A stretch of 52,444 nucleotides of DNA from a bacterium. Its GTDB lineage: Bacteria; Patescibacteriota; Saccharimonadia; Saccharimonadales; UBA4665. The notes under the pieces were generated by a model. It was not told where the DNA came from. It worked only from the letters and a program-made list of their open reading frames with translations, and searched no databases. The first letter of the stretch is position 1, and each line of letters begins with the position of its first letter. Where the stretch lies: NCBI GenBank assembly GCA_021833065.1, contig JAKBGO010000003.1, forward strand, positions 4,426 through 56,869, written 5' to 3'. The position numbers and the translations under genes are program-made. Of this stretch, positions 15-879 are shown piece after piece.

Positions 15-352
15 TGGCTCCGGGGACTGGATTCGAACCAGCGACCTAGTGGTTACACTTTACCCGAAATTTTCATTTCGGTGTGGACTATATCATCATC
101 CATTATTAAATGGATGCAAGGCGCTATCTGAAGGATTATTGTTAGGCTCACCTTCTAGTCTCTGAACCTTCTAAAGTCTTTTAACCTAACCTTAGCTTGG
201 CTGCGGATTACCATATCATATTGATTTAGGTTTCCCGCAATTCACCTTGTTTTCACCAACTAATTACTTAATTGGGCTGCACATTTTGAACTAAACACCA
301 TAAATTTTAATGTTTCGTACAGCCACCCGCTCTACCGCTGAGCTACCCCGGA
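15..352 (-). tRNA. tRNA-Asn(GUU) interrupted by a group I intron
   Basis: Read on the minus strand, the 5' exon (352-319, 34 nt) and 3' exon (55-15, 41 nt) join into a 75-nt cloverleaf. The acceptor arm pairs TCCGGGG with CCCCGGA, the discriminator is G, and CCA is encoded. The D stem is GCTC/GAGC, the anticodon stem GGTGG/CCACT, the anticodon loop CTGTTAA, and the T arm GCTGG-TTCGAAT-CCAGT. The reconstituted anticodon is GTT, and the G discriminator suits Asn. The intron splits the anticodon between its second and third bases. Identity depends on the splice sites, which are supported by a good P1 helix containing the expected U-G wobble. Confidence 0.93.
56..318 (-). ncRNA. Group I self-splicing intron (263 nt) in the tRNA-Asn anticodon loop
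   Basis: Core elements appear in order on the minus strand. A GCGGGAAACCT-type segment lies near 229-240, AATCCGCAGCCAAGC near 195-209, GTTCAGAGACTAGA at 154-167 and GATATAGTCC near 85-95. The last two supply the P7 pairing GACTA/TAGTC. The guide sequence GTGCAGCC (275-282) pairs with the exon-intron junction GGCTGTAC, placing a U-G wobble exactly at the 5' splice site. The intron ends in G. An AT-rich hairpin with arms CGAAAT/ATTTCG lies close to the 3' end. There is no room for a homing endonuclease. The small size and anticodon-loop site resemble known bacterial tRNA group I introns (IC3-like, inferred). Confidence 0.92.
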
Positions 353-411: not shown

Positions 412-879
412 CTATGAATAAGTTGATTTTTTGAGGGCTTGTTTAATTGATTTATCTTGATCTTTCTTTTTCAGTGTTTGTCTTTTGTCGTAATTTTTCT
501 TTCCCTTTCCAAGACCAATCTTAACTTTTATAAATCTACCGTTTGTATATATTTCAAGAGGTATTATTGTTCTTCCCTGTGTCTTCTTTTCAATTAACTG
601 ATTTATCTCTTTTCGCTTTGCCAATATCTTTCGAGTTCGAGTTTTATCTTGATCGGTTATTATAATTCCATTGGTTCCATAAATAGAAGCGTTTATTAAA
701 AACAGCTCCCCGTCTTTAACTGTTATATATGAACCTTTAAGGTCTCCATGTCCTAATCTTAGACTTTTAACTTCTGCGCCCGTTAACTCAATGCCGACTG
801 TTAAGGTTTCCTCGATAGAATAATCGAAAGTGGCCCTTCGGTTAACAAGCTGGTGTCTGTTTTCATTTTTCTTCTTCAT
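412..879 (-). CDS. smpB: SsrA-binding protein SmpB
   Basis: SmpB binds tmRNA (SsrA) and brings it to stalled ribosomes for trans-translation. The 155-aa product has the family's normal length. The N-terminal RRATFDYSIEET and the strongly conserved TGAEVKSLRLGHGDLKGSYI stretch (about residues 34-53) mark the OB-fold core. The C-terminal tail is rich in Lys (KKKDQDKSIKQALKK), as expected of the helix that enters the decoding centre. It starts one base after the stop of the upstream glycoside hydrolase, so the two are probably cotranscribed. No recognisable tmRNA gene was seen nearby. Identification is confident from the sequence pattern alone. Confidence 0.96.
   Translation of the reverse strand: MKKKNENRHQLVNRRATFDYSIEETLTVGIELTGAEVKSLRLGHGDLKGSYITVKDGELFLINASIYGTNGIIITDQDKTRTRKILAKRKEINQLIEKKTQGRTIIPLEIYTNGRFIKVKIGLGKGKKNYDKRQTLKKKDQDKSIKQALKKSTYS

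Follow-up and report, generated by a model that had tools for sequence, protein, structure and literature searches.

We asked what interrupts the anticodon of the tRNA-Asn(GUU) gene that is found on the minus strand at positions 15-352 of the window (that is, of the whole stretch of 52,444 nucleotides that was analysed), and how a working tRNA could be made from it. The answer that we favour, with a probability of roughly 95%, is that this region holds a group I ribozyme, predicted to be self-splicing, which lies between anticodon positions 35 and 36 at a site used by a putatively homing intron family. A split gene of this kind had been proposed in a first-pass annotation of the sequence, and every part named there was found where it had been placed. 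The features of the locus are as follows.

15-55, minus strand: tRNA-Asn 3' exon, from position 36 through the encoded CCA (sequence; ARAGORN cloverleaf of the spliced gene)
56-318, minus strand: group I intron, 263 nt, ACGAAAC... to ...AAAGUG, with the omega-G at 56 (RF00028 match; exact 263-nt insert relative to congeners)
56-249, minus strand: catalytic core and 3' part of the intron, P3 to P9 including the P3/P7 pseudoknot (pair counts)
256-275, minus strand: P2, 8 bp, with a GUAA tetraloop (covariation, 8 of 8 pairs changed on both sides)
275-282, minus strand: internal guide sequence GUGCAGCC (sequence; fold; GCAGC conserved in 18 of 18 aligned introns)
281-318, minus strand: 38-nt 5' segment with the P1 loop and an extra stem, up to the guide GCAGC, no ORF (site of the ORF in a congener and other relatives)
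319-352, minus strand: tRNA-Asn(GUU) 5' exon, positions 1-35, with the 3' end ...GGGUGGCUGU (U35) (sequence; ARAGORN cloverleaf of the spliced gene)
412-879, minus strand: smpB, upstream of tRNA-Asn on the same strand (PF01668, E 4e-45; synteny with two congeners)

When positions 352-319 (TCCGGGGTAGCTCAGCGGTAGAGCGGGTGGCTGT on the minus strand) are joined to positions 55-15 (TAACCACTAGGTCGCTGGTTCGAATCCAGTCCCCGGAGCCA on the minus strand), the product is a 75-nt tRNA-Asn(GUU) with an encoded CCA. With the exons joined, ARAGORN reports a tRNA-Asn(gtt) of 75 bases and a full cloverleaf in which every arm is paired, in agreement with the cloverleaf that had been drawn from the sequence; the unspliced gene was not called by ARAGORN in place. 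Since ordinary tRNA annotation misses a gene that is split in this way, genomes of this kind seem to be without a tRNA-Asn. Around the Rfam match, we also tried all combinations of a 5' cut that follows a T and a 3' cut that follows a G. The cut between U35 and U36 (intron 318-56, 263 nt) gave tRNA-Asn(GUU). Among the alternative splice pairs, those whose product folded yielded tRNAs in which the anticodon was a different one or malformed. A consensus scan for a sigma-70 promoter of the tRNA-Asn gene found none.

The Rfam model for group I introns (RF00028) matches positions 298-64 over its whole length with 108.8 bits (E 2e-27, cut-off 50); a search with a group I model had been asked for by the annotation. 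P1 consists of 8 bp, in which the last six nucleotides of the 5' exon and the first two of the intron (GGCUGU|AC) are paired with the guide sequence and a U-G wobble stands at the 5' splice site; the same helix is formed when this segment is folded freely. The 3' end of the intron, ...AAAGUG, provides the omega-G, and the junction restores GUU. Both this terminal G and the 8-bp P1 with its wobble had been noticed before, and they hold. Between the nucleotides 5' of the guide sequence and the UAA of the 3' exon, an inspection by eye showed no clear pairing, and thus no evident P10.

For the covariation analysis, 18 introns from position 35|36 of tRNA-Asn were aligned, the structure from P2 to P9 was written from the intron of the window, and the pairs were then counted. 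Standard pairs are formed in 93.3% of the cells (shuffled mean 75.9), a figure that is favoured by the derivation of the structure from one of the 18 sequences, whereas the double changes are not favoured to such an extent. Such changes on both sides were seen in 39 of the 55 pairs, and the covariation score was 0.490, compared to 0.171 after shuffling, while slid controls did not exceed 0.103. P3 and P4 are 100% paired, with four pairs of P3 changed on both sides. P7, a pairing that the annotation had also recognised, is 98.9% paired and hardly varies, which fits its role as the guanosine site.

Two congeners (G006 and G003) have an intronless tRNA-Asn next after smpB. The alignment of the window with these genomes is interrupted behind U35 and continues after exactly 263 bases, which shows the empty site directly. 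Together, the empty sites in the two congeners and the covariation in the 18 introns put the presence of an intron far beyond chance. One could suspect that an assembly artefact, or a contaminant joined to the contig, has produced the arrangement, as the window begins right behind a scaffold gap of 10 N, close beside the tRNA. The entire tRNA nonetheless lies within sequence and shares one gap-free stretch with smpB, the congeners show the same arrangement without the intron, and a sister intron is present in another assembly of the genus (support 99/96); we regard an artefact as extremely improbable.

The source assembly, from an ultra-small bacterium of the Saccharibacteria type (Patescibacteria), comprises 664 kb and is 83.9% complete. 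Apart from the intron of the window, this genome has no group I match. There are 38 tRNA matches, none of those typed being Asn, and the pattern of an intronless tRNA-Asn is absent; the search for another copy, suggested along with the intron, thus came out negative in an 84%-complete genome, and this incompleteness leaves room for a second tRNA-Asn. Congeners have a single match for the intronless gene. These counts bear on the idea that the insert is decayed and does not splice, in which case the gene would be a pseudogene and another tRNA-Asn would lie elsewhere. The missing part of the genome could hide such a copy, and decay does occur in this group, given that in one relative (L039) the ORF is frameshifted and the omega-G is missing. 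On the other hand, the intron of the window retains the core, P1 with its U-G pair, the omega-G and perfect exons, and neither the genome itself nor the congeners, with their single intronless match, point to a second tRNA-Asn. We consider a decayed insert very unlikely.

Next, we looked for introns at the same site with a pattern for the 3' junction which no intronless tRNA-Asn gene can satisfy. Fifteen records among the GTDB contigs contain it, mostly from Saccharibacteria; the others come from Candidatus Subteraquimicrobium, Candidatus Oleimmundimicrobium and an Actinomycetota bacterium. In summary, about 20 other genomes host an intron at this site, and 20 distinct introns were examined in full. 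The joined exons of the records that were checked give tRNA-Asn(GUU), each with its own, host-specific sequence. Of the 93 genomes in the family of the window, 12 show the intron junction and 26 the intronless pattern, with no genome showing both. A looser junction pattern is found in 14 of 393 genomes of the order, while the junction occurs in 2 of 380 genomes of the phylum (one belonging to another class) and in 4 of 36 genomes of the class of the Actinomycetota genome. All these prevalence figures are lower bounds, since sequence variants escape the strict patterns, which leave 55 of the 93 family genomes unclassified; examples are L046, with a variant T-stem, and L116, with a variant intron end.

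In seven of the 20 introns (L078, L079, L046, L082, L109, L112 and L116), the P1 loop contains an intact ORF of about 100 amino acids, L078 being the ORF-bearing intron of the window's own genus. The ORF has an HNH-like motif, HH...CANCHRxxH, with one variant reading CSNCHDxxH. As the scores against Pfam HNH (14.6-18 bits) lie below the cut-off of 21.4, the HNH assignment rests on this motif. The HNH-type proteins that were compared share 54-78% pairwise identity and span two phyla. The intron L039 (G095:C32:15830-16067 and upstream), also at the same site of a tRNA-Asn, has an A as its last base in place of the omega-G, and its frameshift is in the HNH-type ORF; it is possibly a decaying copy, or possibly a sequencing error. 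The intron of the window has no ORF, its 38-nt segment shows no clear ORF remnant, and no relative of the HNH-type protein is found in its genome.

In the viral collection, the intron-containing 3' junction had no match, and hence we saw no phage carrier. IMG/VR contigs do encode relatives of the HNH-type protein, with 35-57% identity. For example, the contigs L125-L128 encode a protein that is 57% identical to the HNH-type protein over about 75 residues.

In our reading, the same-site introns make up a putative homing family, and the window would hold a member that lacks the ORF. In the intron tree, this copy is sister to the ORF-bearing copy of the congener (99/96). The rRNA-type introns included in the tree form a separate long branch. 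When all same-site introns were held as one clade, the tree was not rejected (p-AU 0.234), which settles a single clade neither way. Instead of homing, the introns could have been inherited vertically from a common ancestor and lost many times, an explanation that competes only with the mobility part of our reading. All copies sit in one gene at one site, and the Actinomycetota copies group together, apart from those of Saccharibacteria (87/70), which would fit vertical descent or one old transfer. Within the genus, however, 2 of 7 genomes have the intron-junction pattern and 5 of 7 are intronless, so that presence and absence alternate at one site among close relatives; furthermore, several introns encode the HNH-type ORF, and introns are present in two distant phyla. 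Vertical descent with losses appears to us unlikely, yet worth serious attention, and a transfer of tRNA-Asn introns across phyla is possible.

For the intron of the window, the anatomy suggests the following course of splicing. The pre-tRNA-Asn would be transcribed from the minus strand, the guide sequence would keep the last bases of the 5' exon in place in P1, with the U-G pair, and guanosine would attack after U35. The freed U35 would then attack after the omega-G (position 56), joining the exons and restoring GUU. Where the P1 loop contains an HNH-type ORF, its product is presumably a homing endonuclease, which would cut intronless tRNA-Asn genes and let the intron copy itself in. Because the intron of the window has no ORF, we see it as a resident or post-mobile copy, whose persistence would depend on splicing.

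The hosts that the literature consulted names for bacterial tRNA group I introns are tRNA-Leu, tRNA-fMet and tRNA-Ile2, with 37/38 as the common site. Compared with these, it was fair to call Asn a less usual host. The annotation did not include the HNH-type ORFs of related introns, the variation in intron presence within the genus or the copies in Actinomycetota. Other bacterial tRNA group I introns belong to subgroup IC3, and the present one may resemble this tRNA type. The introns of cyanobacterial and plastid tRNA-Leu(UAA) and of cyanobacterial tRNA-fMet are likewise small group I introns residing in the anticodon loop of a tRNA, but the tRNA is another one and so is the position (mostly 37/38), a distinction made from published descriptions. 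The tRNA-Ile2 introns of Azoarcus, Acidovorax and Burkholderia are further group I introns of bacterial tRNAs, and ordinary tRNA finders overlook them too, but they differ in tRNA and phylum. A 2025 preprint reportedly deals with tRNA introns in Patescibacteria and may well describe the 35|36 site of tRNA-Asn, and for this reason we claim the present intron only as a further case of a known kind. In CPR genomes, group I introns in tRNAs have been mentioned in passing (PMC8172020), and those in 16S and 23S rRNA have been detailed together with their homing endonucleases (PMC11270868). The rRNA introns share with ours the phylum-level hosts and the combination of group I intron and homing endonuclease; however, they reside in rRNA, and LAGLIDADG is prominent and HNH unmentioned (PMC11270868).

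Other group I introns were seen along the way. In the same order, a genome contains one in a CAU-anticodon tRNA (L047, G079:C14, about 32.3-33.1 kb; tRNA-Met according to ARAGORN); it seems to interrupt the tRNA between positions 33 and 34, and a long upstream segment precedes its core. Four genomes of the window's family (G041, G051, G057 and G015) have 4 to 11 group I matches each, compared to one in the window's genome; many are clustered within a few kilobases and, judging by flanking motifs, at least part of them lie in 23S rRNA genes. In an Actinomycetota genome with an HNH-bearing tRNA-Asn intron, a weaker group I match (L114, G504:C17:2971-3203) adjoins the conserved 23S rRNA motif GGTCCTAAGGTAGCGAAATTCC.

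As a tentative picture, which we hold to be possible though somewhat short of probable, a tRNA-Asn intron family specialised on the 35|36 site, with its own small HNH homing endonuclease, may have been passed between Patescibacteria and deep-branching Actinomycetota, going through gain, ORF loss and decay, and some reduced genomes may depend wholly on a ribozyme for asparagine decoding. Introns with an intact ORF, without an ORF, or with a broken ORF and no omega-G, together with the intronless congeners, make up a compact natural series for the homing cycle of gain and loss in reduced genomes. If tRNA-Asn is indeed a single-copy gene in this organism, all decoding of asparagine in the cell has to pass through a selfish RNA.
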